Positions 5,460 to 40,338 of a stretch of DNA of 64,000 bases are shown piece after piece. Below the pieces are notes generated by a model. That model was not told where the DNA came from and did not search any database. It worked only from the letters and a program-made list of their open reading frames with translations. A program made the translations under genes and the position numbers. Location: positions 248,001 through 312,000 of the forward strand of contig JIBW01000002.1 in assembly GCA_012970285.1 (NCBI GenBank), written 5' to 3'. The stretch comes from Bacillaceae bacterium JMAK1 (GTDB lineage: Bacteria; Bacillota; Bacilli; Bacillales; Marinococcaceae). Each line of letters begins with the position of its first letter. The stretch's first letter is position 1.

Positions 5460-6176
5460 TTATTCCCACCTGAAAAATCGCAATGAGAGCGTTGTAGCGG
5501 CAATTGTAATCACAAATAATAGCAGCAAAGAAGAATAGGAGGTAAACGGCGACCCTAAGGCTTGACTTTGAAGTAGCTCGATACCATGAGTTAATGGAAG
5601 AAGTTGCGCAATCGATTGTAAAACGCTCGGTAATAAATCAAATGGAATGGTCGCACCGGATAAGATGAACATGGAAAAGAACAATAAACTACTCATTGCA
5701 GCCGTCGTCTTCTCTCGCGGAGAAGTACTTGCGATCAGTATACCAATCGAGTGAATGCTAATCATCACAAACAGATAGGAAATAAGGAAAAGTCCGATCG
5801 ATCCAGGGAAGATCATGTTGAAGCCGAATAGTGCAACGAGAGAAACGGTAAACATAGACAAGATACTTAAGCTAAAACAATAAAAAACATGTGCAACGAG
5901 TAACTGTACCGGGCTAATAGGTGTAACTTTGTACCGCTTTAACACTTTCTTTTCACGATAGGAAGAAAGGGACAAAGGTAAGCTCATGACACCTGTAGAT
6001 ACGAGCCCTAGCGTTGCAACGGCGGCAAATGTTGTTACAAGTTCTTCATTAGTAGTGGAGAGGTAGCCCATAATAACCATAATACCGACAGGGAGAAACA
6101 ACCCGAAGATAAATGACGACATCTCCCGAAATGATAGTTTAAACTCTGCGACGTAGAGTAACCAAAATGTTCTCAT
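5460..6176 (-). CDS. ABC-2 type transporter permease
   Basis: A 238-residue membrane subunit with about six helices and the ABC-2 layout: a cytoplasmic start, a first helix at residues 20-40, and a central SLSSYREKKVLKRYKVTPISP loop that is characteristic of ABC-2 exporters (short R-E-K-x-x-x-x-L-K-R-Y motif). It pairs with the ATPase encoded just upstream, whose last four bases overlap its start (ATGA). The substrate is unknown; the linked MerR gene makes a drug or toxic amphiphile plausible. Confidence 0.85.
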   Translation of the reverse strand: MRTFWLLYVAEFKLSFREMSSFIFGLFLPVGIMVIMGYLSTTNEELVTTFAAVATLGLVSTGVMSLPLSLSSYREKKVLKRYKVTPISPVQLLVAHVFYCFSLSILSMFTVSLVALFGFNMIFPGSIGLFLISYLFVMISIHSIGILIASTSPREKTTAAMSSLLFFSMFILSGATIPFDLLPSVLQSIAQLLPLTHGIELLQSQALGSPFTSYSSLLLLFVITIAATTLSLRFFRWE

Positions 6177-6892
6177 CGTATTCCCTCCCCTGTTAGCTGT
6201 AAATAAGCGTCATCCATCGATTTCGCTCCACTTTTTGATAACACTTCTTGAACAGTTCCTTCCATAAAGACGTTGCCATGTTTGAGCAGCAAAATACGGT
6301 CACAAAGTGCCTCAATCTCATGCATATCATGAGAGGTTAATAGAATGGTAACCCCCTCATCGTTTAATTTACGTAAATTGTTCCAAATCTGTCGTCTAGC
6401 AACGGGATCTAATCCGGTCGTTAATTCATCTAATACGAGTAGTTTTGGTTGACCCATTGTAGCAAGGAGAATGCACAATTTTTGGCGTTCACCACCTGAG
6501 AGAGTAGAAATGGACGAGCGTACGTGGTGTTCAAGTTGATAGTCCGCCAGTTTCGTTCTCCAATCGATTGGATTCTTGTAAAGAGAGTGTGTGATTTCAC
6601 AAATTTCCTTAACGGTTAAGCCGTTTTGAAACGCACTTTCTTGAAATTGAACACCGATCTGTTCAAAGAGAGATTTATGCTTCGTAGTAGGTGAGGTCCC
6701 GAGAATGTTCACCGTACCTTGATCAAGTTTCTTCGTGCCGAGCAAACAATCAATGGTTGTTGATTTGCCTGCACCATTGGCGCCGATTAGACCGAAGATT
6801 TCTCCAGTCTTCACGTTCATATTGAGACCTTGTAAAACCTGTTTGTTGCCGTAGTATTTCACGAGTCCTTCTGCTTCAATTGCGTATGTCAT
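6173..6892 (-). CDS. ABC transporter ATP-binding protein
   Basis: A 239-residue nucleotide-binding domain. Walker A GANGAGKST (about residue 37), Q-loop VQFQESAF, signature TLSGGERQK, Walker B LLVLDELTTGLDP and the switch His in LLTSHDMHE are all present. It energises the ABC-2 permease. First gene of a three-gene operon (ATPase, permease, MerR); GGAGGGATCCT precedes the ATG. The leader from the predicted MerR promoter is only about 20 bases long. Confidence 0.9.
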   Translation of the reverse strand: MTYAIEAEGLVKYYGNKQVLQGLNMNVKTGEIFGLIGANGAGKSTTIDCLLGTKKLDQGTVNILGTSPTTKHKSLFEQIGVQFQESAFQNGLTVKEICEITHSLYKNPIDWRTKLADYQLEHHVRSSISTLSGGERQKLCILLATMGQPKLLVLDELTTGLDPVARRQIWNNLRKLNDEGVTILLTSHDMHEIEALCDRILLLKHGNVFMEGTVQEVLSKSGAKSMDDAYLQLTGEGIR

Positions 6893-6921
6893 AGGATCCC
6901 TCCAATGTGATTTGCTATTGA

Positions 6922-6952
6922 AGTGTAGACCCTCCCTTTACAGGAGAGTCAA
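6922..6952 (-). promoter_or_regulatory. MerR-type promoter/operator with 19-bp spacer
   Basis: On the minus strand: -35 TTGACT (6947-6952), 19-bp spacer, -10 TACACT (6922-6927). Lying between the elements is the dyad GACTCTCC-N7-GGAGGGTC, matching at seven of eight arm positions. An overlong spacer with a central dyad is the hallmark of promoters switched by MerR-family activators, and the operon encodes one. Confidence 0.85.
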
Positions 6953-6962
6953 CTCGTGAACA

Positions 6963-6999
6963 AAAAAACACGTAATGGAAAAATTCCATTACGTGTTTT
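6963..6999 (-). terminator. intrinsic terminator
   Basis: ACACGTAATGGAA / TTCCATTACGTGT hairpin with a run of seven T on the minus-strand side. The stop codon of the DUF948 gene lies inside the stem. Confidence 0.85.
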
Positions 7000-7429
7000 G
7001 GGTTGCTGCGTTGTATTCTTTTTTCTTCTGATTTAAGAAATAAACAAATGCTGCAAGGCCGTATAGACCACGGAGGTCTTTGTTGTCAGTCATTTCTGCA
7101 GCTGCATTTGTTTGCTTACGCATACTCTCTGTTAGATCAACAAGGCTTGATGAAACTTTTCTTGAGGCGGTTCCTGCATCCTCAACCATTCCGAAAATGG
7201 GGTTGAGCGTTTTGATCTTTTCATTAAGATCGAGAATGGTTTCATTTGTGTTGTGTAAAATCGTTCCTGTTTCTTTACTGATTTCATCAAGTTGGTCGGG
7301 TAGTTTACCGATCGTATCTCCGGTTTTAGAAAGTACATCACTTAGATTGTTCAATACTTTCCCGAGAAAAATGACAAGTACAGCAAAAGCGATTGCGGCG
7401 ATGAGTGCGGCAATTCCTAAAAAGTCCAT
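6989..7429 (-). CDS. DUF948 domain-containing membrane-anchored protein (YtxG-like)
   Basis: A 146-residue protein with one N-terminal membrane helix (IAALIAAIAFAVLVIFLGKV, residues 5-24), then a long amphipathic, coiled-coil-like region rich in Ile/Leu heptads (NNLSDVLSKTGDTIGKLPDQL and on), as in DUF948/YtxG general stress proteins. Function is not established. The ATG at 7429 has GGAG seven bases upstream; the longer frame extends into the neighbour. It is the last gene of a group with a DUF5665 gene and a pterin dehydratase gene, all reading leftward. Confidence 0.75.
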   Translation of the reverse strand: MDFLGIAALIAAIAFAVLVIFLGKVLNNLSDVLSKTGDTIGKLPDQLDEISKETGTILHNTNETILDLNEKIKTLNPIFGMVEDAGTASRKVSSSLVDLTESMRKQTNAAAEMTDNKDLRGLYGLAAFVYFLNQKKKEYNAATQNT

Positions 7430-10005: not shown

Positions 10006-10022
10006 CTTCCAAAGTTTGGAAG
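10006..10022 (+). promoter_or_regulatory. perfect 8-bp inverted repeat in the carboxylase leader
   Basis: CTTCCAAA-G-TTTGGAAG, a perfect palindrome around one central base, in the untranslated leader about 30 bases after the predicted start point. No T run follows, so it is not a terminator; a regulator-binding site is the simplest reading. It does not match the FapR or Fur consensus. Confidence 0.45.
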
Positions 10023-10063
10023 CAGGCGCGATTTGCCTGATATCAAGAAGGGAGCTCCATGAG

Positions 10064-11404
10064 ATGATTAATAAAGTACTGATTGCGAATCGCGGGGAGA
10101 TTGCGGTTCGGATTATTCGGGCATGTCGCGAATTAGACATTGAAACGGTGGCAGTATATTCAGAGCCTGATCGCGAATCATTACACGTTGTGATGGCGGA
10201 TGAAGCATATTGTATCGGACCGAGTACTGCGACTGAAAGTTACTTAAAGAAAACGAATATTATAGCTACGGCTCTAAAAACAGGCTGTGATGCTATTCAC
10301 CCAGGATATGGTTTCTTGGCAGAGAACGCTGAATTTGCAGAGATTTGTGAAGATCATGGTCTCGTATTTATTGGACCTTCACCGAGTGCGATAAATCGTA
10401 TGGGCGATAAATCACAGGCAAGAGACACGATGAAAGCGGCCGGCGTCCCGATTGTTCCTGGAAGCGATGGTCTCATTGATCGAGAAGATGAAGCGATTGA
10501 AATTGCTAAAGAAATTGGTTACCCTGTCATTATTAAAGCAACTGCAGGGGGCGGTGGAAAGGGAATGCGCGTCGCTCAAAACCGTGAGGAACTCGTTCGC
10601 TCCATTCAAACTGCAAGACGAGAAGCTGAATCGAACTTCGGGAATGCAGGCGTTTATTTAGAAAAGTTTGTCGAAGAGCCTCGCCATATTGAAATTCAAA
10701 TTGTCGGTGATAGATACGGTGATGTAGTGCATTTCGGAGAACGAGATTGCTCGATTCAACGTCGTCATCAGAAGTTGATCGAAGAAGCGCCTTCACCAGC
10801 ATTGAATGAAACGATTCGCGAAGAAATGGGGCAAGCTGCGGTTGCTGCTGCAAAGGCCGTAGAGTATTGCGGCGCAGGAACGGTTGAGTTTTTACTCGAT
10901 AAACATAAGAATTTTTACTTCATGGAAATGAACACTCGGATTCAAGTAGAGCATCCGGTTACTGAAGAGGTTACCGGTGTTGATTTAATAAAAGAACAAT
11001 TGCTCGTTGCAAACAAGCAGCCTTTGTCTGTGAAACAAGAAGAAGTCGTTGTACGTGGACACGCAATTGAGTGCCGGATTAATGCCGAGAATGCCCGTAA
11101 AGGGTTCAGACCTTCCCCTGGGAAGATTTCGATGTGTGTGCCTCCAGGTGGACCGGGAGTGCGTGTCGATAGTGCTGCGTATACAGGTTACACAATTACA
11201 CCATTCTATGATTCAATGGTCGCCAAACTTATCGTTCATGCAAATACGAGAGATGAAGCGATTGCACGAATGAAACGTGCGTTATCAGAGTTTGTCATTG
11301 AAGGGGTCGATACGACCGTTCCATTCCATTTAAACTTAATGGATCATGATGTGTTTAAATCGGGAGAATTTGATACAAGTTTTCTAGAAAAATATACGGT
11401 GTAA
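10064..11404 (+). CDS. biotin carboxylase subunit of an acyl-CoA carboxylase
   Basis: A 446-residue ATP-grasp enzyme that carboxylates the biotin on the carrier protein. Visible: [23 protein letters not shown] start, ATP-binding [28 protein letters not shown], and the [18 protein letters not shown] active-site segment. The length is that of AccC. ATG at 10064 is preferred because AAGGGAG is nine bases upstream; the longer frame covers the leader. The next genes encode a biotin carrier and a propionyl/methylcrotonyl-type carboxyltransferase, so this set may serve an acyl-CoA other than acetyl-CoA; a second accBC pair is expected elsewhere in the chromosome. Confidence 0.93.
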
Positions 11405-14631: not shown

Positions 14632-15540
14632 ATGCACATATTGTCGGTTTCACATGAAGGAATTGAAACGCTAGCTGCAAAGCAAATGTCAAGCGATAAA
14701 GTATTACTGTTAGAGAAAGCTTTCCAACTTTACAGTCCAGGAACGGAATGCCCAACAGATATGATATCAGCTATTTCACTTGGCGAGCCTTTCCTCAATA
14801 CAGTAAATTCTGTATATGAGCAAGCGGTACATAACGAAGCTGTTAATAAAGATGTATTTATAAAAGACGGAGAATTTCAAACGCTCACACCAATTAAACA
14901 ACCTCCCAAAAATGTAATGTGTGTCGGGAAAAATTATGCAGCACACGCGATTGAAATGGGTTCTGCAAAAGATATCCCAGACCATCCATTAATCTTTACG
15001 AAAGCTCATACGACGATCTGTGCCCATAGAGACGACGTTTCACTACATCGTGACGTTACAGAGCAAGTTGACTATGAAGGTGAACTTGCCATCGTTATTG
15101 GTAAAAAGGGAACGAAGATAAAGCGCGAAGAAGCTTGGGATTACATCTTTGGATTTACACTATTAAATGATATTACGGCTCGCGATTTACAAGCAAAACA
15201 TAAACAGTTCTTTGTCGGCAAAAGTTTAGACGGTTTTTGTCCAATAGGTCCATCCATCGTTACGGGGCTAAGTGAGGAAGAACTACTAAAAGAGACCATT
15301 ACGACAACGGTGAATGATGAAGTACGACAGCAAGCACCTCTTACTGATATGATCTTTGATGTTCGAGAATTGATTCACGTACTGTCGAAAGGAATGACGC
15401 TCGAGCCTGGTGATATTATCGCAACAGGTACACCGTCAGGCGTTGGGAAAGGAATGAAACCACCGAAGTTTCTTAGAGCTGGTGATGAAGTAGTGATCAC
15501 GATCCCTGCAATTGGTGAGCTACGCAATCAGATGGTTTAA
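14632..15540 (+). CDS. fumarylacetoacetate hydrolase family protein (YisK-like)
   Basis: A 302-residue FAH-fold enzyme. The catalytic domain starts near residue 97 (KNVMCVGKNYAAHAIEMG), with HPLIFTKAHT, the metal-binding YEGELAIVIGKK, and GFTLLNDITARDLQ with GKSLDGFCPIGP, ending in PGDIIATGTPSGVGKG. Metal ligands Glu/Glu/Asp are in place. In the family such proteins hydrolyse C-C bonds or decarboxylate oxaloacetate; the length and N-terminal extension fit Bacillus YisK. It is co-transcribed with the quinone reductase-like gene and ends at a terminator shared with the convergent kamA-like gene. Confidence 0.85.
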   Translation: MHILSVSHEGIETLAAKQMSSDKVLLLEKAFQLYSPGTECPTDMISAISLGEPFLNTVNSVYEQAVHNEAVNKDVFIKDGEFQTLTPIKQPPKNVMCVGKNYAAHAIEMGSAKDIPDHPLIFTKAHTTICAHRDDVSLHRDVTEQVDYEGELAIVIGKKGTKIKREEAWDYIFGFTLLNDITARDLQAKHKQFFVGKSLDGFCPIGPSIVTGLSEEELLKETITTTVNDEVRQQAPLTDMIFDVRELIHVLSKGMTLEPGDIIATGTPSGVGKGMKPPKFLRAGDEVVITIPAIGELRNQMV

Positions 15541-15615: not shown

Positions 15616-16797
15616 TTATGACGTTTTAACTTTGCGTTTTCGTTTCTCAGGCATGTCAGACATTTGATTGACGCTTGCAACGTCGTCTACTTTCTTCTTA
15701 GGCATTTCCCAATGGGCTTCACTTCCTGGTAAATCATCAAACCAAGCAGCATCGTCTGGACAATCTAAAACCATAAACTTTCCATAATTTCCATCGCGTG
15801 ATTGGTGGTATTTTAAATACGCTTTTCCATCTTCAATGGCAAGAATTTCGATTTTCCCAGACGTGTGACTCATCGACAGGCGAATTCGTTTGCCAAGACC
15901 ACTCGTAATCGCTTTAGCTTTTTCGACGGCTTCATACGCTTCTTTAAGTGTGAGCACAAAGTCGTTGTTACCAGCAACTGGGCGGTTAATAAAGAAGTAG
16001 TAAGGGGTTACACCAGCCCAGGATAATCGATTGAGTAGCTCGCCTAAGTCTTCAGGGTTATCATTAATTCCCTTTAGTACAGGCGTCTGGTTAACAACGA
16101 TGACTCCTGAATCGTGAAGCGCTTCAAATGCTTTTTTTGCTTCAGCGGTAATTTCACGTGGGTGATTGACGTGAGCCATCACATAGATTCGATTGTCAGG
16201 TGTAGAGTATTCTTTAAAGAGATCAAGCAGCTCTTGATCTTCATAAATACGCATCGGATTAAATACAGGCAATTTTGAACCGATCCGGATAATCTTTACG
16301 TGCGGAATGCTACGCAGTTCTTCAATAATGTAACGCAACTTCTTCGTTGCTAAAATCATCGGGTCTCCACCCGTTAAAAGGACGTTGTTGATTTCAGGGT
16401 GATTACGGATGTATTCAATTCCAGGATCAACATCGCTCATTGCTTCTTTTACGTCGTTTCTAAATAAGCGCTTTCTAAAGCAATAGCGACAATAAGCACC
16501 GCAAACTTCGGAGCAAATTAAGAGGGCAGTCGTTTCATACTTATGTTGGCAACCGGTAACAACGTAATTCGTATCTTCATCAGAAGCATCCCAACGACCG
16601 TATTCAGAAAGCTCTTGTTCGTTTGGGATTACGAGATTCTTAATAGGGTCATTCGGGTCTTCCCAATCAATAAGACCTAAATAGTAATCATTGACTCTAA
16701 ACACAAATTTATCAGTGATCTTACGGAGTTTTTCTTTTTCTTTCTCTGGAATTTCTGGAATTTTATCAATATTAGTAATATATTTTGGCTGTGCCAT
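15616..16797 (-). CDS. KamA-family radical SAM aminomutase-like protein
   Basis: A 393-residue radical SAM protein. The cluster motif CGAYCRYC (CxxxCxxC) and the following RKRLFRND, then LLTGGDPMIL, are those of lysine/glutamate 2,3-aminomutases and the EF-P lysyl enzyme EpmB. The classical PGGGGK lysine loop for pyridoxal phosphate is replaced by SHTSGK; its lysine may still serve. The C-terminus is Lys/Arg-rich. Substrate is unknown. ATG at 16797 has AAAGGAGG at the right distance, while the earlier ATG at 16803 abuts it. It diverges from the aminotransferase gene across a region packed with operator-like dyads. Confidence 0.8.
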   Translation of the reverse strand: MAQPKYITNIDKIPEIPEKEKEKLRKITDKFVFRVNDYYLGLIDWEDPNDPIKNLVIPNEQELSEYGRWDASDEDTNYVVTGCQHKYETTALLICSEVCGAYCRYCFRKRLFRNDVKEAMSDVDPGIEYIRNHPEINNVLLTGGDPMILATKKLRYIIEELRSIPHVKIIRIGSKLPVFNPMRIYEDQELLDLFKEYSTPDNRIYVMAHVNHPREITAEAKKAFEALHDSGVIVVNQTPVLKGINDNPEDLGELLNRLSWAGVTPYYFFINRPVAGNNDFVLTLKEAYEAVEKAKAITSGLGKRIRLSMSHTSGKIEILAIEDGKAYLKYHQSRDGNYGKFMVLDCPDDAAWFDDLPGSEAHWEMPKKKVDDVASVNQMSDMPEKRKRKVKTS

Positions 16798-16838
16798 AAA
16801 CATCCTCCTTTAGTATTGATCATTGATAGAATGAGCTT

Positions 16839-16867
16839 AGTATAACAAGAGGAATGTACAAGGTCAA
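16839..16867 (-). promoter_or_regulatory. sigma-A promoter of the kamA-like gene
   Basis: Minus strand TTGACC (16862-16867), 17-bp spacer, TATACT (16839-16844). Close to consensus, and outside the cluster of dyads. Confidence 0.75.
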
Positions 16868-16899
16868 AAAAGAATAAAAAGATTCAAAATAGTTTTAAA

Positions 16900-17007
16900 T
16901 GAAAGATCTCCTTCATATTTTTGAAATAAATATTTCACAAAATGAATAATTTGAAATAATGGGTTCACAAAAAGAGAGTTTTCGCTTAAAATGAAGTAAA
17001 TCATTCA
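16900..17007. promoter_or_regulatory. four 16-bp TGAA-N8-TTCA dyads, probable RpiR operators
   Basis: Dyads at 16900-16915, 16922-16937 (the perfect palindrome TGAAATAAATATTTCA), 16952-16967 and 16992-17007. The third overlaps the -35 and the fourth overlaps the -10/start region of the aminotransferase promoter. Their size and AT-rich centre resemble MurR/RpiR-family sites, and such a regulator is encoded two genes downstream. Confidence 0.65.
16964..16992 (+). promoter_or_regulatory. sigma-A promoter of the aminotransferase gene
   Basis: TTCACA (16964-16969), 17-bp spacer, TAAAAT (16987-16992), lying between and partly under two of the TGAA-N8-TTCA dyads. Confidence 0.55.
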
Positions 17008-17053
17008 TTTTGTTATTTTTATGAAATTAATATTTTATTACTGGAGGAGAACA

Positions 17054-18436
17054 ATGGGGATAGCGAACAATCGCCTTTCTTATGAAGCGCAAACAATGAT
17101 GTCAAAAAGACATATGGAGCGTGCAAAACAAGTCATGCCTGGAGGGATGACTGCGAATATAAAGCATTTTGAGCCATACCCAATTGCCATTAAACGAGCA
17201 CACGGCAGTCGGATGTTTGATGTTGATGGTCATGAATACATCGACTATTTAATGGGATACGGGGCTTTGATGCTCGGTCACGGTCATGAAGAAGTGAAAG
17301 CCGCAATCCAACAACAAATTGAACAAGATGGCACGTGGCTGTTCGGAACGCCTCACGAAAAGGAAGCCGCATTTGCGGAACGGTTGTTACGATATTTTCC
17401 TTCAATGGAAAGCGTGCGCTATACGAACTCAGGAACAGAAGCGAATTTACTTGCCCTTCGCTTGGCGATGGCGCACACAGGTAAATATAAGATTGCGAAG
17501 TTTGAAGGACATTACCACGGAGCGATTGACTCTCTACTCATTAGTGTAAGTCCTAATGAAAAGGATGCAGGTACTGCACATGAGCCAAACCGTGTTGCAG
17601 ACTCATACGGTATGGATGAATTAGCGATGCAAAATACGTTCGTTCTTCCGTTTAATCAGTTTGAGCACTGTGAAAAAATCTTAACAAAACATGCAGACGA
17701 AATTGGGGCGCTCATTGTTGAGCCATTAGAAGCAGGTATTATTGCGCCAACGAACGATTTCCTACAGAAGCTTTATGCATTAACGAGAAAGTTAAACATC
17801 GTATTGATCTTTGATGAAGTGAAAACAGGATTTAGAACTGGCATGGGTGGTGTTCAGAACCTCTACAATGTTGAACCAGACTTAACGACGATGGGGAAAG
17901 TTGTTGGTGGAGGTTTTCCTTTCGGTGTTGTTGGTGGGAAACAAGAAATTATGGAGCGTACGTCTCCGCTCGCTGGATTTGATTTCTTTGCCGACCAAGA
18001 CCCTACCGACCGTAAGCAACTGGCGTTGTTCCACAGTGGAACGTATAACGGTCACCCGCTCGTTTTAGCAGCAGGTTTAGCAACACTAGATGTTCTAGAA
18101 GAAGAAATGAGTGACTTATTGATTCGCACAGAACAGTTCAAATCGGAACTTGAAGCGATATTTAAGAAACATAGTCTTCCAATGAAAGCGGTTGGCATCG
18201 GTTCATTGTTTAGTGTATTATTTACAAATAAGGAATGTCTCAGTAATTATCGATGCTTCGAGCACGTAGATAAGAAGCTTCGAACAGAAATGGATCGTGC
18301 CCTATTCCAAGAAGGAATTTATGTTAAACCTGGTAATCGTTATAGCATGTCAGTTGCACACGATGATGAAGCAATTGAGAAAACGATTCGTGCTTATGAA
18401 AAGGTGGTACCGACCCTTTTTCCTTCAAACGATTAA
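17054..18436 (+). CDS. class-III PLP aminotransferase, HemL-like
   Basis: A 460-residue fold-type I aminotransferase related to glutamate-1-semialdehyde aminomutase. Visible: VMPGGMTANIKHFEPYP, DGHEYIDYLMGYGALMLGHGH, the cofactor-binding NSGTEANLLALRLA and EGHYHGAIDSLL, IFDEVKTGFR with the PLP-ring Asp, and the Schiff-base Lys in TTMGKVVGGGFPFG. It is longer than true HemL and lacks heme gene context, so it probably acts on another amino acid. ATG at 17054 follows GGAGGAGA. The divergent aminomutase and the RpiR gene 36 bases downstream suggest a shared small pathway. Confidence 0.82.
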   Translation: MGIANNRLSYEAQTMMSKRHMERAKQVMPGGMTANIKHFEPYPIAIKRAHGSRMFDVDGHEYIDYLMGYGALMLGHGHEEVKAAIQQQIEQDGTWLFGTPHEKEAAFAERLLRYFPSMESVRYTNSGTEANLLALRLAMAHTGKYKIAKFEGHYHGAIDSLLISVSPNEKDAGTAHEPNRVADSYGMDELAMQNTFVLPFNQFEHCEKILTKHADEIGALIVEPLEAGIIAPTNDFLQKLYALTRKLNIVLIFDEVKTGFRTGMGGVQNLYNVEPDLTTMGKVVGGGFPFGVVGGKQEIMERTSPLAGFDFFADQDPTDRKQLALFHSGTYNGHPLVLAAGLATLDVLEEEMSDLLIRTEQFKSELEAIFKKHSLPMKAVGIGSLFSVLFTNKECLSNYRCFEHVDKKLRTEMDRALFQEGIYVKPGNRYSMSVAHDDEAIEKTIRAYEKVVPTLFPSND

Positions 18437-18472
18437 TGTGTAGGGTTTCGCGGTCTGAAGGGGGATCTTGAA

Positions 18473-19321
18473 TTGTCTGATGTATATGAACAAATGATCG
18501 CGAGACAGCATGAGATGAGTAAATCTCAATTAAAGATCGCCAACTATTTGATCGATCATCAAGAGACCGCACCGTTTCTTACCGCGTCAAAACTAGCCAA
18601 AAACGCAGAAGTAGGCGAGGCGACCGTCGTGCGCTTCGCTTTCTTTTTAGATTACAAAGGCTACCCAGATTTGCAACGTCACATGCAAGCAGCTTTACAA
18701 CGTAAATGGACGTCTGCGGAAGTGTTTGCGTCAACGACTGAGCAAGGGGATTCTCCAAAAGATACGATTCGAGAAGTGCTCGCTGATGATATGAACAATT
18801 TAAGTACAACGCTCCAACAAATTGACATCGAACAGTTTCAAGGTGCAATTGATGATATTGTCAATGCGAAGCGAATCTACATTATCGCTTATAGAAGTGC
18901 GATGAGTGTGGGATTATTTCTTGAATTCTACTTGGATCTCGTATTACAAAATACCGAGATGCTTCGTAGTGCAGATGGGGTATCAGAGCATTTGATTGAT
19001 ATAAAAGAAGATGACTTGGTTATCGCTTTTGGCTTCTCAAGGTATACGAAACGAACGGTAGAAGTGTTGAAATCTGTCAAACAAAAGAACGCTAAAACGC
19101 TCGTTATTACGGATCATATGTTATCTCCACTCGTTCCATACGGTGATCGGAAGTTACTTGCGGCAACTGAAATTAATTCATTTATTGATTCGTTTTCAGC
19201 GCCTCAGAGCATTGTGAGTGCATTGATTACAGCTGTAACAAGATCACAACACGAAAAGGTTGAAAAACGCTTAGAAAGTTTAGAAGAGCTTTGGGATGCG
19301 TTTGATGTCTTTCACAAATAA
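18473..19321 (+). CDS. MurR/RpiR family transcriptional regulator
   Basis: A 282-residue repressor/activator. Residues 1-75 are the RpiR helix-turn-helix (SKSQLKIANYLIDHQETAPF, then SKLAKNAEVGEATVVRFAFFLDYKGYPDLQ); residues 125-250 are a SIS sugar/ligand-binding domain (AKRIYIIAYRSAMSVGLFLEFYLDL ... LVIAFGFSRYTKRTVEVLK). SIS domains of this family sense small phosphorylated or amino compounds. The TTG start has GAAGGGGGA upstream. It follows the aminotransferase gene in the same transcript and is the best candidate to bind the dyads at 16900-17007. Confidence 0.88.
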   Translation: MSDVYEQMIARQHEMSKSQLKIANYLIDHQETAPFLTASKLAKNAEVGEATVVRFAFFLDYKGYPDLQRHMQAALQRKWTSAEVFASTTEQGDSPKDTIREVLADDMNNLSTTLQQIDIEQFQGAIDDIVNAKRIYIIAYRSAMSVGLFLEFYLDLVLQNTEMLRSADGVSEHLIDIKEDDLVIAFGFSRYTKRTVEVLKSVKQKNAKTLVITDHMLSPLVPYGDRKLLAATEINSFIDSFSAPQSIVSALITAVTRSQHEKVEKRLESLEELWDAFDVFHK

Positions 19322-19691: not shown

Positions 19692-21689
19692 TTACGCTTC
19701 AACCGTACGTTCAGGTGTACGTGGTGTTTGATTCCGCTTGTTACGGAAATGTTGAAGTAGGCCAATCAAAACGAGAATTCCAATTCCTACAAGAGAAATT
19801 GTGATGCTATTTGGATAAACAGCCATAATTCCACCGACGATTAATCCTAGACGTTCATAGATTTTAGGTTTTGCAATGAAATAGTTCATAATGGCAGCAC
19901 TTATTGCGACCATTCCAATAATCGCAGTTATGAGCGGTGGCATAAGCGTCGTAAATGTTGCATCTTGCAAGAGTAACACAGGGTTTGCTACGAACACGTA
20001 TGGAATGATAAAGGCAGCGATTGCCAACTTAAATGCGATGATCCCTGTTTTCATCGGATTGGCTCGCGCAATTCCTGCACCTGCATAAGCTGCTAAGCAG
20101 ACAGGAGGCGTAATGTCTGCTGCGAGACCGAAGTAAAATACAAACATGTGTGCTGCAATCGGTGGGACATCAAACATCAAAATTGCTGGTGCTGCAACGG
20201 TTGCAGTCACAACATAATTAGCTGTTGTCGGAAGACCCATACCAAGTACTATACAAGCAATCATCGTAAAGAACAGTACAAGGAAGAACTGGCCATCTGC
20301 AAGTATGATAATTCCTCGTGCTAACACACCACCAAGTCCAGTAAACACAACAATCCCAACGATAATCCCTGCTGAAGCACAGGCAGCAATGACTGGAACG
20401 GCTGTTCTAGCTCCTTTCTCCATCATATCTAGAACACCGAGAAATGTTGGGCGTGTATCTTTTCGAAATAAACTGATAGCAAAGGCAGCAAGAATACCCC
20501 ATAATGCAGCGAAAGTTGGGGTGAAGCCTATGAGCATTAAACCTATAATTGTTACGAGTGGCAAAATCATATCAATTCTCGTAATAAATGAACGTATTTT
20601 TGGAAGTTCAGAAACTGGAACGCCGACAATTCCTTGACGTTTCGCTTCAAAGTGTATACCGAAAAACACCCCCATAAAGTAGAGCAATGCCGGAATGATG
20701 GCATAAATAATAAGTTCGCTATAGGGGATGCCTACGTACCCCGCCATAATAAAAGCAGCAGCCCCCATAATTGGTGGCATAATTTGTCCACCTGTTGAGG
20801 CAGAAGCTTCTGCAGCACCGGCAAACTCAGGTCTAAAACCAGAACGTTTCATCATCGGTATCGTAAAGGAACCAGAACCAACTGTATTGGCAACAGAACT
20901 TCCTGTTACCATCCCTTGTAAACCACTTGCAGCGACGGCCGCCTTGGCTGTTCCACCGGTATACCGCCCGGTTAGTCGAAAGGCAATATCGTTGAAGAAC
21001 TGACCAATATTTGTTCGGACGAGAATTACACCGAAAAACAAAAATAAGTAAATAAATGTTGAAGACACTTGAATTGGTGTACCGAAAATAGCTTCAGTCG
21101 TAAAGAACAGTTGCGTTGCCATTCCTGTCCACGTAAAACCAGGGTGGGCAAACGTCCCGAGCCAGGACCAAGAGCCGTATACACCATAAAGTAAAGCAAG
21201 TATTGCTATGACGACAATAGGCATGCCGACCGCTCGTCTCGTCGCTTCAAGTAAAAGGGCGATCGCGCCTAGTGCAACGAGTTGGTCATGAAGTGAAAAA
21301 CCAAATATAATAGCGCTCGTCAAATATTCATAGTTCCAAACAACATAAAAACAACAATAAAGCGAAAGAAGTGCAAGAATTGCATCGTAAAATGGAACAC
21401 CGACTTTTTTATCTGCTTTTTTACTAATGGGATATAATATGTAAATTAATGCAAGACCACTACCAACGTGAATAGCCCCTTGCATTAATGATCCATAGCC
21501 CCCGCGAAGACCGGTATACAAGTGAAACGAGGTGAGAGATATACCTATAATGAACGCAATCCAAATCCACTTACCAAGATCGGTTCTCGTGTTTGATTCT
21601 TTGTCAAATTTCTTCAGCAGCTCTTCTTTTTCTTTTTCAGTCAGTTCTCGCTCTGGTGCAGCGTTGAGATGAGCGTTGGCATCAGCCAT
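19692..21689 (-). CDS. TRAP transporter fused permease (4TM/12TM)
   Basis: A 665-residue protein with about 16-18 membrane helices: an N-terminal small (DctQ-like) part, then the large DctM-like part with the GLQGMVTGSSVANTVGSGSFTIPMMKRSGF and ASASTGGQIMPPIMGAAAFIMA regions and the AADITPPVCLAAYAGAGIA motif typical of TAXI-type fused permeases. It imports an organic acid or amino acid with sodium or protons. It is co-transcribed with the solute-binding protein gene upstream; a GC-rich hairpin separates the two. Substrate unknown; the aminotransferase locus nearby is a possible link. Confidence 0.9.
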   Translation of the reverse strand: MADANAHLNAAPERELTEKEKEELLKKFDKESNTRTDLGKWIWIAFIIGISLTSFHLYTGLRGGYGSLMQGAIHVGSGLALIYILYPISKKADKKVGVPFYDAILALLSLYCCFYVVWNYEYLTSAIIFGFSLHDQLVALGAIALLLEATRRAVGMPIVVIAILALLYGVYGSWSWLGTFAHPGFTWTGMATQLFFTTEAIFGTPIQVSSTFIYLFLFFGVILVRTNIGQFFNDIAFRLTGRYTGGTAKAAVAASGLQGMVTGSSVANTVGSGSFTIPMMKRSGFRPEFAGAAEASASTGGQIMPPIMGAAAFIMAGYVGIPYSELIIYAIIPALLYFMGVFFGIHFEAKRQGIVGVPVSELPKIRSFITRIDMILPLVTIIGLMLIGFTPTFAALWGILAAFAISLFRKDTRPTFLGVLDMMEKGARTAVPVIAACASAGIIVGIVVFTGLGGVLARGIIILADGQFFLVLFFTMIACIVLGMGLPTTANYVVTATVAAPAILMFDVPPIAAHMFVFYFGLAADITPPVCLAAYAGAGIARANPMKTGIIAFKLAIAAFIIPYVFVANPVLLLQDATFTTLMPPLITAIIGMVAISAAIMNYFIAKPKIYERLGLIVGGIMAVYPNSITISLVGIGILVLIGLLQHFRNKRNQTPRTPERTVEA

Positions 21690-21752: not shown

Positions 21753-22817
21753 TTAATTCAATAAGCCTGCTTCTTCGAAGTAGCGCTCAGCTCCTGGATG
21801 CATTGGGAGTCCTTCATTCCCTAATAATAAGTTATCTGTGTCTTCCATATGCATTCCTTGATTGTGGGTAATGCTACTTGCATTCTCATAAAGGGCTTTC
21901 GTAATTTCATAACCTAAATCTTCATCGATCGTTTCATTTGAACCGATTAAAACAGCGTAAGCAGCAATCGCATTGATATCTTCCTCTAGGAAATCATACG
22001 TATCAGCTGGAATGACAATTCGTTCATACATACTATTTTCTTCGATCGTATCAAGGGCATCTTCGTCAATGGAAAGCAGTTCAACGTCGATTTGGCTATC
22101 AAGTTCTGTTATGTTGTCAGCAGGTAAGCCTAACAAACCGAACGTTGCATCAATATTACCGTCTTGAAGCATGCCTGCTCCATCACCAAATCCTTCTTCA
22201 TACACTTCAATGTCGTCCTCAGTCATACCGTAAGCTTCAAGTATCATTAAAGAAGCCGATTGTGAAGCTGAGTTTGGAGGACCGAGGTTTACTCGCATAC
22301 CTTCTAAATCTTCAATCGATTCAATGCCGCTATCTGCTCGAACGGCAATCTGATTCGTTTCTGGATAAATGTAACCCATGTAACCAAATTGATCGAATTC
22401 TCCTTGCCCTTCAAAATCGCCAATGCCTTCTAACGCATCAAGCGCAGGGATATGTACAGTCATCCCTAGATCAAGATCACCGTTATGCACACGGGCAATG
22501 TTCTCATTAGAAGCACCTGTGGAAACCGCATTTACCGTGACACCATCTGCATTGTCAGAGATCACGTTTGCCATTTCTTGGCCGAGTGCATAATATGTTC
22601 CCCCAGTAGAACCGGTACCGATTTGAAGTTGGGAACCATCACCGCTTGAAGCGGCGTCCTCGCCATCTGCATCATCACCATCGTCTGCTCCGTCCGTATC
22701 CCCGACATTTAGATCGTCTTCGTCAAGCTCATCCACATCAATGTCGCTGTCGCAAGCCGCGAGAACGGCGACAGACAAAAATGTCCCCGATAGTAAAACT
22801 TTCTTATACTTGTTCAT
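21753..22817 (-). CDS. TAXI-family TRAP solute-binding lipoprotein
   Basis: A 354-residue lipoprotein: signal peptide with lipobox LAAC at about residue 22, then an unusually acidic linker of roughly 35 residues made mostly of Asp/Glu/Gly, then the TAXI core (LQIGTGSTGGTYYALGQEMAN ... VNAVSTGASNENIARVHNGDLDLGM ... MRVNLGPPNSASQSASLMIL). It captures the substrate outside the membrane and passes it to the fused permease. GGGGAGGT precedes the ATG. The acidic linker suits a high-salt exterior. Confidence 0.92.
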   Translation of the reverse strand: MNKYKKVLLSGTFLSVAVLAACDSDIDVDELDEDDLNVGDTDGADDGDDADGEDAASSGDGSQLQIGTGSTGGTYYALGQEMANVISDNADGVTVNAVSTGASNENIARVHNGDLDLGMTVHIPALDALEGIGDFEGQGEFDQFGYMGYIYPETNQIAVRADSGIESIEDLEGMRVNLGPPNSASQSASLMILEAYGMTEDDIEVYEEGFGDGAGMLQDGNIDATFGLLGLPADNITELDSQIDVELLSIDEDALDTIEENSMYERIVIPADTYDFLEEDINAIAAYAVLIGSNETIDEDLGYEITKALYENASSITHNQGMHMEDTDNLLLGNEGLPMHPGAERYFEEAGLLN

Positions 22818-39192: not shown

Positions 39193-40338
39193 ATGCAAAA
39201 TCACCTTTTTAAAACGTATAAACGTTGGGATTTAACGTTTGAGAAAGCATTTGACAGTACGATTATCGCAAATGGTCAACCGTATCTTGATTTAATGAGC
39301 GGCATAGGAACCGTAAATCTTGGTCACAACCATCATCGTGTTAACAATGCGATACAAGAACAGTTAGACAAAGGAATGCATGGTTCGAACCTTTTTCACT
39401 ATGAACTACAAGAACAAGCAGCAGAGAAACTTGCTACCTTATCCGGCTTAGACTATGTTTTCTTCGCAAATAGTGGTGCAGAAGCAAATGAAGCAGCAAT
39501 TAAACTCGCACGAAAAGCGACAGGAAAACATGAGATTATCACATGTGAACAATCGTTTCATGGTCGAACATACGGCGGAATGGCAGCGACAGGTCAGGAA
39601 AAAGTACGACTTGGCTTCGGACCGAATTTGCCAGGTTTCTCTTACGTCCCATTTAACGATGTAGAAGCGATGAAAGAGCAGCTTACTGAAGATACAGCAG
39701 CAATCATGATTGAAATTGTTCAAGGTGAAGGCGGTGTTCATGTAGGAACTACGGAATACTTACAAGCAATTGAGCAAATGGCAAAAGAAGTCGGTGCTCT
39801 TTTGATCATCGATGAAATCCAAACGGGAAATGGGCGTGTGGGATCTGCATTTGCTTATCAACAAATTCCGTTATCTCCTGATATTGTGACCACTGCAAAA
39901 GGTGTAGCGAACGGATTTCCAGTCGGTGCAATGATCGGTAAGAAAGAACTTGCAGATTCGTTTAGTTACGGAAGCCACGGAAGTACATTCGGAGGGAATC
40001 CGTTGGCGATGGCAGCAGTAAATGCAACGTTAAATGAAATGAACGACAGTCTGTTTCAATCAGTAAAAGAAAAAGGCGAGCTCACCTTATCGCTCCTTCA
40101 AAAAGGACTCGCACAGAACCCTGGAGTGAAAGAAATCCGCGGTAAGGGTCTTATGATTGGGATAGAACTTGACTTGAAGTCAAGTGATGTCGTTGCACAA
40201 TTACAAAAGAAAAACATTCTTGCACTGCAAGCAGGTGAGCACGTTGTACGGATGTTACCACCGCTCACCATTGATTCAGCAATGCTTGAAGAAGGAATAC
40301 AAACGATTATACAAACGATACAAGAGTTGTCAGCATAA
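39193..40338 (+). CDS. argD: acetylornithine aminotransferase
   Basis: A 381-residue class-III aminotransferase. FANSGAEANEAAIKLARKA, EQSFHGRTYGGMAATGQ, IDEIQTGNGRVG with the PLP Asp, and the Schiff-base Lys in TTAKGVANGFPVG are present. It makes N-acetylornithine from the semialdehyde. A weak site, GAGAGTAATGG, precedes the ATG. Confidence 0.96.
   Translation: MQNHLFKTYKRWDLTFEKAFDSTIIANGQPYLDLMSGIGTVNLGHNHHRVNNAIQEQLDKGMHGSNLFHYELQEQAAEKLATLSGLDYVFFANSGAEANEAAIKLARKATGKHEIITCEQSFHGRTYGGMAATGQEKVRLGFGPNLPGFSYVPFNDVEAMKEQLTEDTAAIMIEIVQGEGGVHVGTTEYLQAIEQMAKEVGALLIIDEIQTGNGRVGSAFAYQQIPLSPDIVTTAKGVANGFPVGAMIGKKELADSFSYGSHGSTFGGNPLAMAAVNATLNEMNDSLFQSVKEKGELTLSLLQKGLAQNPGVKEIRGKGLMIGIELDLKSSDVVAQLQKKNILALQAGEHVVRMLPPLTIDSAMLEEGIQTIIQTIQELSA

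Follow-up and report, generated by a model that had tools for sequence, protein, structure and literature searches.

We analysed a 64,000-nucleotide stretch of the genome of Bacillaceae bacterium JMAK1 (contig JIBW01000002.1, positions 248,001–312,000; hereafter the window), in which a gene for a KamA-family radical S-adenosylmethionine (SAM) protein is divergent from the genes of a class-III aminotransferase (AT3) and an RpiR-family regulator. The reading that we favour, with a probability of about 0.62, is that the KamA-like protein is a glutamate 2,3-aminomutase making beta-glutamate as a compatible solute, and that AT3–RpiR, with the TAXI-type TRAP transporter genes beyond it, forms a separate module. 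In this model the enzyme would isomerise glutamate in a reaction dependent on pyridoxal phosphate (PLP) and SAM, Arg274 would bind the side-chain carboxylate, and the beta-glutamate formed would be retained as a compatible solute; in some relatives, a dedicated glutamine synthetase would amidate it to beta-glutamine. We propose glutamate as the substrate because of Arg274 and of a glutamine synthetase gene coupled to KamA, and an osmolyte role because a cyclic di-AMP (c-di-AMP) riboswitch precedes KamA in relatives. The riboswitch and the synthetase are features of those relatives, and their transfer to the window would rest on orthology. What the computations show directly are the fold, the places of the cysteines, the lysine and the arginine, the riboswitches, the gene coupling and the palindromes; substrate, product, the osmolyte role in this genome, the operator function and the substrates of AT3 and of the transporter are deduced from them.

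The KamA-like protein and its active site

The gene and the codons of its key residues lie as follows.

15616..16803, minus strand: KamA-family radical SAM gene (proposed glutamate 2,3-aminomutase), 395 amino acids, from the open reading frame list and family models
15853..15855, minus strand: codon of Lys317, on the PLP lysine 337 of lysine 2,3-aminomutase (LAM), in the motif SMSHTSGK
15982..15984, minus strand: codon of Arg274, at the place of LAM Asp293 (Lys in the glutamate 2,3-aminomutase Eam)
16480..16503, minus strand: codons of CxxxCxxC (C101, C105 and C108), the [4Fe-4S]/SAM site

Translation probably starts at Met3 (ATG at 16797), because AAAGGAGG lies just before it. The window belongs to a 4.1-Mb genome in which this is the sole KamA-family gene detected with the KamA-like protein as query, and the nearest named matches, at 98% identity, are from Geomicrobium. 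An earlier note, made from the DNA letters alone, had described a KamA-family protein with a CxxxCxxC motif and an altered PLP loop, and both descriptions hold: the cysteines are C101, C105 and C108, and the SMSHTSGK loop is real. The protein passes the general model of KamA-family radical SAM proteins (TIGR00238, 228.7 bits against a cut-off of 199.2) and fails those of Eam (TIGR04368, 228.2 against 650), LAM (TIGR03820, 222.4 against 525.4) and EpmB (TIGR03821, 199.1 against 369.3); it is also below the cut-off of an arginine-aminomutase model. A viperin-like match returned by PADLOC (19.5 bits) was dismissed as generic radical SAM similarity.

The AlphaFold model (mean predicted local distance difference test score 87.4) matches LAM (PDB 2a5h) with a Z score of 38.0 and a root mean square deviation of 2.5 over 325 residues, while the next PDB entry reaches a Z score of 15.2. 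Whether the loop lysine reaches the PLP site had been raised in the earlier note; in a profile-to-PDB alignment with 2a5h, Lys317 falls on LAM Lys337 and Ser310 on Asp330, and Arg274 aligns with Asp293. The residues C101, C105, C108, R110, R274 and K317 are invariant in all 144 aligned rows (143 of them distinct, as the window is counted twice), position 310 varies among S, V, A and C, and in relatives from other classes of the phylum (38–61% identity) R274 and K317 are kept in nine of the nine readable among ten loci. We take Asp293 and Asp330 of LAM to hold the amino group of lysine. An arginine in place of Asp293 points to a substrate with an anionic side chain, probably glutamate in the first place. 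Five sequences that pass the Eam model all have Lys at the Asp293 place and Asn at the Asp330 place.

Two alternatives concern the nature of the enzyme itself. Its family membership, and LAM being by far its top PDB match, suggest a LAM whose loop has drifted, or else EpmB, the enzyme that lysylates elongation factor P (EF-P), but we regard this as highly improbable: Asp293 is replaced by an invariant arginine, the scores fall far below the LAM and EpmB cut-offs, and several genomes (G028, G092, G086, G423, G029, G048 and G051) possess, besides the ortholog, a separate KamA-family copy at about 36–38% identity. Residues and model cut-offs do not fit either identity, both of which we rejected, and the EF-P-modifying enzyme that the earlier note had offered as its alternative is not favoured. 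It seems very unlikely that the protein has kept the KamA scaffold but works without PLP, as a radical SAM enzyme other than an aminomutase; the glycine-rich PLP loop is indeed replaced by SMSHTSGK, and the segment after the loop is unlike the C-terminal segment of LAM, but a lysine occupies the Lys337 place in every aligned row.

The KamA-like protein represents a conserved subfamily typical of Bacilli. The gene is present in 22 of 29 genomes of the window's family, where the other copies are 84–98% identical to that of the window, and a sample of 398 Bacilli genomes contains 56 with orthologs at 63–100% identity (a few of these partial or fragmented). Below these orthologs, the next matches listed in the Bacilli sample have at most 41% identity; outside Bacilli, a phylum sample bridges the gap with matches at 58–61% and 39–46%. 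Some genomes hold multiple orthologs (66–78% identical to the window's), three in G109 and two each in G249, G123 and G057. Upstream of a distant KamA relative, at about 3 kb and on the same strand, we observed OLE RNA (RF01071, more than 427 bits) in two loci (L295:9814–10437 and L296:10224–10848, minus strand).

Riboswitches and glutamine synthetases beside KamA in relatives

Searches with Rfam RF00379 placed c-di-AMP riboswitches just 5′ of KamA in Paenibacillus, Cohnella and further loci. A search model built from 20 of these KamA-upstream riboswitches gave 24 matches in 80 named loci, all 5′ of KamA and on its strand, with no other match at E ≤ 0.1 in 1.01 Mb. Eleven of the 24 are seeds of the model and 13 are not; 12 were also found by RF00379. 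All 24 fall among the 30 Paenibacillus and Cohnella loci. Applied to a further 61 sources, the model made seven matches, six of them upstream of KamA; two of the six (L263 and L268) are genes already used as seeds, and the remaining four come from other families (f22, f55 and f59). Matches away from KamA (L134:1–145 and L258:10520–10622, both minus strand) were not counted. Neither the Rfam nor the aptamer-model scan found an aptamer in any aminotransferase-linked locus.

In the literature, c-di-AMP is described as regulating the homeostasis of potassium and osmolytes. According to PMC9337991, Na+ riboswitches occur with ablA and eam, which are named there as osmoprotectant genes, and a tandem pair of Na+ and c-di-AMP riboswitches precedes a lysine aminomutase gene. 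A literature search combining c-di-AMP, riboswitch and aminomutase found nothing beyond that paper.

The second line of evidence comes from the neighbours of KamA in 120 loci (80 plus 40). In five of them a glutamine synthetase gene is coupled to KamA, overlapping its end or following closely downstream, with gaps, for the starts as chosen, of −1 (L074), −1 (L081), −4 (L097), +24 (L267) and +34 nucleotides (L271). PF00120 matches the three coupled synthetases tested (L074, L267 and L271), and in both genomes checked the coupled gene is a second copy beside another GlnA. The five proteins are 48–74% identical to one another and 40–53% to three GlnA proteins; each of them carries a loop NGNA[LM]H where GlnA has NGSGMH. 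This loop presumably has a role in substrate use. A glutamine synthetase of Methanohalophilus is reported to make beta-glutamine (PMC1224877).

We also looked for such synthetases across genomes. Copies at least 70% identical to that of G092 occur in four of the 398 Bacilli genomes (G077, G092, G048 and G051), all four KamA-bearing and all with the NGNA loop; in G048 and G051 KamA lies on other contigs. The chance that all four fall among the 56 KamA genomes is about 0.0004 as calculated by hand with kinship ignored, G077 and G092 being of one family. A synthetase relative at 60% identity in G067, a genome lacking KamA of the window type, has an NGSA loop, and seven ordinary glutamine synthetases have G at the fourth place of the loop. 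We read the loop sequence for 12 of the 19 loci, and the search is not a full census because Paenibacillus-type copies (50–59% identical to the query) overlap with ordinary GlnA (up to 56%). The earlier note's suggestion of a beta-amino-acid osmolyte role gains support from these riboswitch and synthetase contexts.

Substrates other than glutamate, whether anionic (aspartate, 2-aminoadipate or a glutamyl derivative) or small and neutral, we judge unlikely. Arg274 implies only that the end of the side chain is probably acidic, and in three loci (L246, L256 and L259) an ATP-grasp-type gene of 385–390 amino acids, confirmed with Pfam in one, lies directly 3′ of KamA and in two of the three overlaps it by 4 nucleotides; its product is possibly a ligase that uses the beta-amino acid. 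Glutamate is favoured, however, by the coupling and co-occurrence with the special glutamine synthetase, by the Eam-like basic substitution, and by a gene with a glutamate-synthase domain (Pfam on one) that stands next to KamA, more than 150 nucleotides away, in two loci. An MnmA-like gene, arginine-biosynthesis-like genes (both identified by eye) and one recurrent unannotated gene were set aside as neighbours by chance. A FAH-family hydrolase gene (14632–15540 in the window) recurs in the vicinity of KamA, in 15 of 80 loci, without evident link, as does a quinone-oxidoreductase-like gene in 16 of 80 without clear role.

Several observations weigh against a glutamate 2,3-aminomutase that makes an osmolyte. 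By curated criteria the KamA-like protein is not Eam, because it scores 228 bits against the required 650, and the Asn of Eam at the LAM Asp330 place is not kept (Ser310). To our knowledge, no member of this KamA-like subfamily has been assayed. The window contains no c-di-AMP riboswitch, and the aptamer is absent in six of the 30 Paenibacillus and Cohnella loci (L074, L081, L093, L097, L110 and L113). Paenibacillus is, moreover, mostly non-halophilic. The window genome has no NGNA-type synthetase: its two PF00120 genes have loops NGSG and TGSS. Those NGNA-type synthetases that were scanned with NCBIfam (two of five) pass the general GlnA cut-off. The ectoine genes near KamA in five Paenibacillus loci (with EctA, B, C and D confirmed for L100 alone) speak for an osmolyte role, but their neighbourhood may be one inherited arrangement, and outside the aminotransferase group no general KamA partner emerged among the surveyed loci. 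Finally, a second glutamine synthetase copy alone proves nothing, because in Halobacillus halophilus a second, salt-induced glutamine synthetase is tied to ordinary glutamine (PMC2412884).

The aminotransferase–RpiR module and its relation to KamA

The remaining features of the locus are these.

16922..16937: perfect palindrome TGAAATAAATATTTCA, proposed RpiR operator, in the gap between KamA and AT3
16952..16967: second operator-like box, two mismatches
17022..17037: third operator-like box, one mismatch
17054..18436, plus strand: class-III (HemL-like) aminotransferase AT3 (PF00202, 208 bits)
18473..19321, plus strand: RpiR-family regulator (HTH_6 and SIS domains), directly 3′ of AT3
19692..21689, minus strand: TRAP fused permease (TIGR02123, 691.1 bits)
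21753..22817, minus strand: TAXI-type TRAP solute-binding protein (TIGR02122, 264.1 bits)

This divergent arrangement, with TRAP and TAXI beyond it, is the one that the earlier note had described, and its identification of a HemL-like class-III aminotransferase followed by an RpiR regulator agrees with the domain matches. GGAGG precedes the AT3 start codon at 17054, while the open reading frame caller begins at 17021. By family models and PDB entries alike, AT3 matches glutamate-1-semialdehyde (GSA) aminomutase best; beta-transaminases are among its PDB relatives, and it fails the HemL models (NF000818, 378.4 against 398 bits; TIGR00713, 370 against 527.3). The catalytic lysine K282 is present in 101 of 101 rows; position 37, within a TANIK-type motif, is always basic (K in 89, R in 12), and we take it to be the place of the substrate arginine of GSA aminomutase. 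The window has a second class-III aminotransferase gene (39268–40317, corresponding to G000:C4:287268–288317; PF00202, 371.6 bits), and its genome has 11 genes of PF00202 type.

The gene order is well conserved. Among 20-kb loci from 20 of the 21 other family genomes with the KamA-like gene (G019 left out), 19 keep KamA, AT3 and RpiR in order, so that the pair, for which the earlier note had proposed a synteny survey, proves syntenic in these relatives, and 18 keep the full five-gene order; L041 lacks all four partners and L038 lacks TRAP and TAXI. In G019 there is no AT3 within the 1.5-kb flank of KamA (L021).

This synteny is the starting point for a rival account, in which one catabolic pathway unites the locus: KamA would convert an alpha- to a beta-amino acid, AT3 would remove the beta-amino group, TAXI-TRAP would supply the substrate and RpiR would control all of it. 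We consider it improbable as the main reading. Beyond the 18 of 20 family loci, AT3 accompanies KamA in 29 of 80 wider loci (12 of them of the same family), and L202 has a second arrangement, KamA–RpiR–AT3 on a single strand. The two genes share 24 genomes, where a calculation by hand predicts 7.9 (Fisher p = 5.5e-9, uncorrected for relatedness). An RpiR of the linked type (at least 57% identity) occurs in five of 53 fetched AT3 loci, all five in KamA-bearing genomes, and the beta-transaminases among the PDB relatives of AT3 would suit the proposed reaction. Against a single pathway, however, AT3 stands without KamA in 32 of its 56 genomes and KamA without AT3 in 32 of 56, RpiR is found with KamA but without AT3 in nine of 80 loci, and within the family KamA is 84–98% conserved whereas AT3 outside the genus is 53–65%.

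The palindrome bears on the same question. Across the whole window, matches with at most two mismatches are as frequent as expected (10 against 10.6), and only the cluster at 16922–17037 stands out. With at most one mismatch, 39 RpiR-bearing loci contain 38 sites, in 25 loci, against 0.38 expected, and 42 RpiR-less loci contain one against 0.12, the motif having been first spotted in the window and many of the counted loci being related. A site with at most one mismatch lies 5′ of AT3 in 13 of 19 loci without an adjacent KamA, a count for which no chance expectation was computed. Because the palindrome is present upstream of AT3 where KamA is not adjacent, it marks AT3–RpiR, and we rejected it as proof of KamA control. 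It is absent from all 23 usable TAXI upstream regions (four more ran off the locus and were dropped), and RpiR control of TAXI-TRAP was dropped as a candidate on that ground. An operator function is proposed from the sequence pattern. As KamA shares the control region of AT3–RpiR, control of KamA by RpiR is plausible.

AT3–RpiR thus has a distribution of its own. Relatives of AT3 (E ≤ 1e-110, 45–100% identity) occur in 56 of the 398 Bacilli genomes. The 53 further AT3 loci that we fetched (G232 left out) contain an RpiR of at least 33% identity in 45 cases, a TRAP permease in 13 and KamA in two; TAXI-TRAP also accompanies AT3–RpiR where KamA is absent. In a single family, nine AT3 loci contain no TRAP but a symporter of GltP/DctA type, a kind of transporter for acidic solutes; the only one scanned with Pfam and NCBIfam (L219) matches SDF with 422.8 bits and GltP with 633.8 against a cut-off of 638. 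In L185, from a KamA-less genome, two glutamine synthetase paralogs 78% identical to each other flank AT3 and RpiR (5832–7163 and 10019–11344, minus strand), with [A/P]GNGMH instead of NGSGMH, another possible substrate change.

AT3–RpiR is an independent, separately inherited module, not the proven second step of KamA. It seems to serve an acidic amino or keto acid without needing KamA. The idea of the earlier note, an aminomutase followed by a transaminase, therefore survives in part: an aminomutase-type enzyme and the synteny of the pair stand, but a two-step pathway from KamA to AT3 is not demonstrated, because KamA and AT3 each occur in many genomes that lack the other. Nor does a single pathway agree with the operator-like palindrome belonging to AT3–RpiR and with the occurrence of TAXI-TRAP beside that unit in loci that lack KamA. 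Where the genes are together the two steps are possible, because their association spans families, has two arrangements and exceeds chance. In the favoured reading of a separate beta-glutamate-forming aminomutase, KamA in the window genome shares a divergent control region with a separate module made up of a putatively RpiR-controlled AT3 and a TAXI-TRAP uptake system. The substrate is probably an acidic amino or keto acid, and the module may serve to salvage the solute or to remove it.

Implications and likeness to known systems

More tentatively, and with somewhat more doubt than belief, we consider that Bacilli have a dedicated beta-glutamate/beta-glutamine osmolyte system, overlooked under generic KamA annotations. 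Its Arg274-type glutamate 2,3-aminomutase would be under c-di-AMP riboswitch control in Paenibacillaceae and would lie next to an RpiR-controlled module in halophiles; some genomes would add a beta-glutamine synthetase of NGNA type, and RpiR, AT3 and TAXI-TRAP would recapture or recycle the solute. No beta-glutamate aminomutase of Bacilli appeared among the titles and opening lines of abstracts listed in our literature searches. If the proposal is correct, a beta-amino-acid osmolyte is produced by a common, only generically named gene that halophilic and soil Bacilli carry; in Paenibacillaceae an osmolyte-synthesis enzyme is under direct c-di-AMP control through RNA; and a synthetase dedicated to beta-glutamine exists in some bacteria. 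Osmoadaptation with beta-amino acids, best described in methanogens, would then extend to a large bacterial group.

Among the known enzymes closest to the KamA-like protein is Eam (TIGR04368), the glutamate 2,3-aminomutase reportedly described by Ruzicka and Frey in 2007. The two share the KamA family, the CxxxCxxC motif and the position of the PLP lysine, and in both a basic residue replaces LAM Asp293 and no acidic residue is found at Asp330. The KamA-like protein is, however, 31–33% identical to Eam, has Arg for the Lys of clostridial-type Eam and Ser for its Asn, and differs in its MSHxxGKIE loop, its lack of an N-terminal extension and its C-terminal segment. With LAM (KamA/AblA; TIGR03820, 2a5h) it has in common the fold, the cluster motif and the PLP lysine, whereas Asp293 is changed to Arg and Asp330 to Ser, the C terminus is another and the score is below the cut-off. 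AT3 resembles HemL (TIGR00713) in its best family and PDB matches but falls below the cut-offs, and has Lys or Arg at the substrate-arginine position, in a TANIK-type motif.

At the level of the pathway, the osmolyte system of Methanohalophilus resembles our proposal in its end products and in a glutamine synthetase for beta-glutamine, but PMC1224877 reports that methanogen beta-glutamate does not come from an aminomutase, which is the route proposed here. The riboswitch-controlled osmoprotectant aminomutases of PMC9337991 are likewise aminomutase genes under ion or c-di-AMP control by RNA; here the c-di-AMP aptamer precedes another KamA subfamily, in Paenibacillaceae and not in the window.

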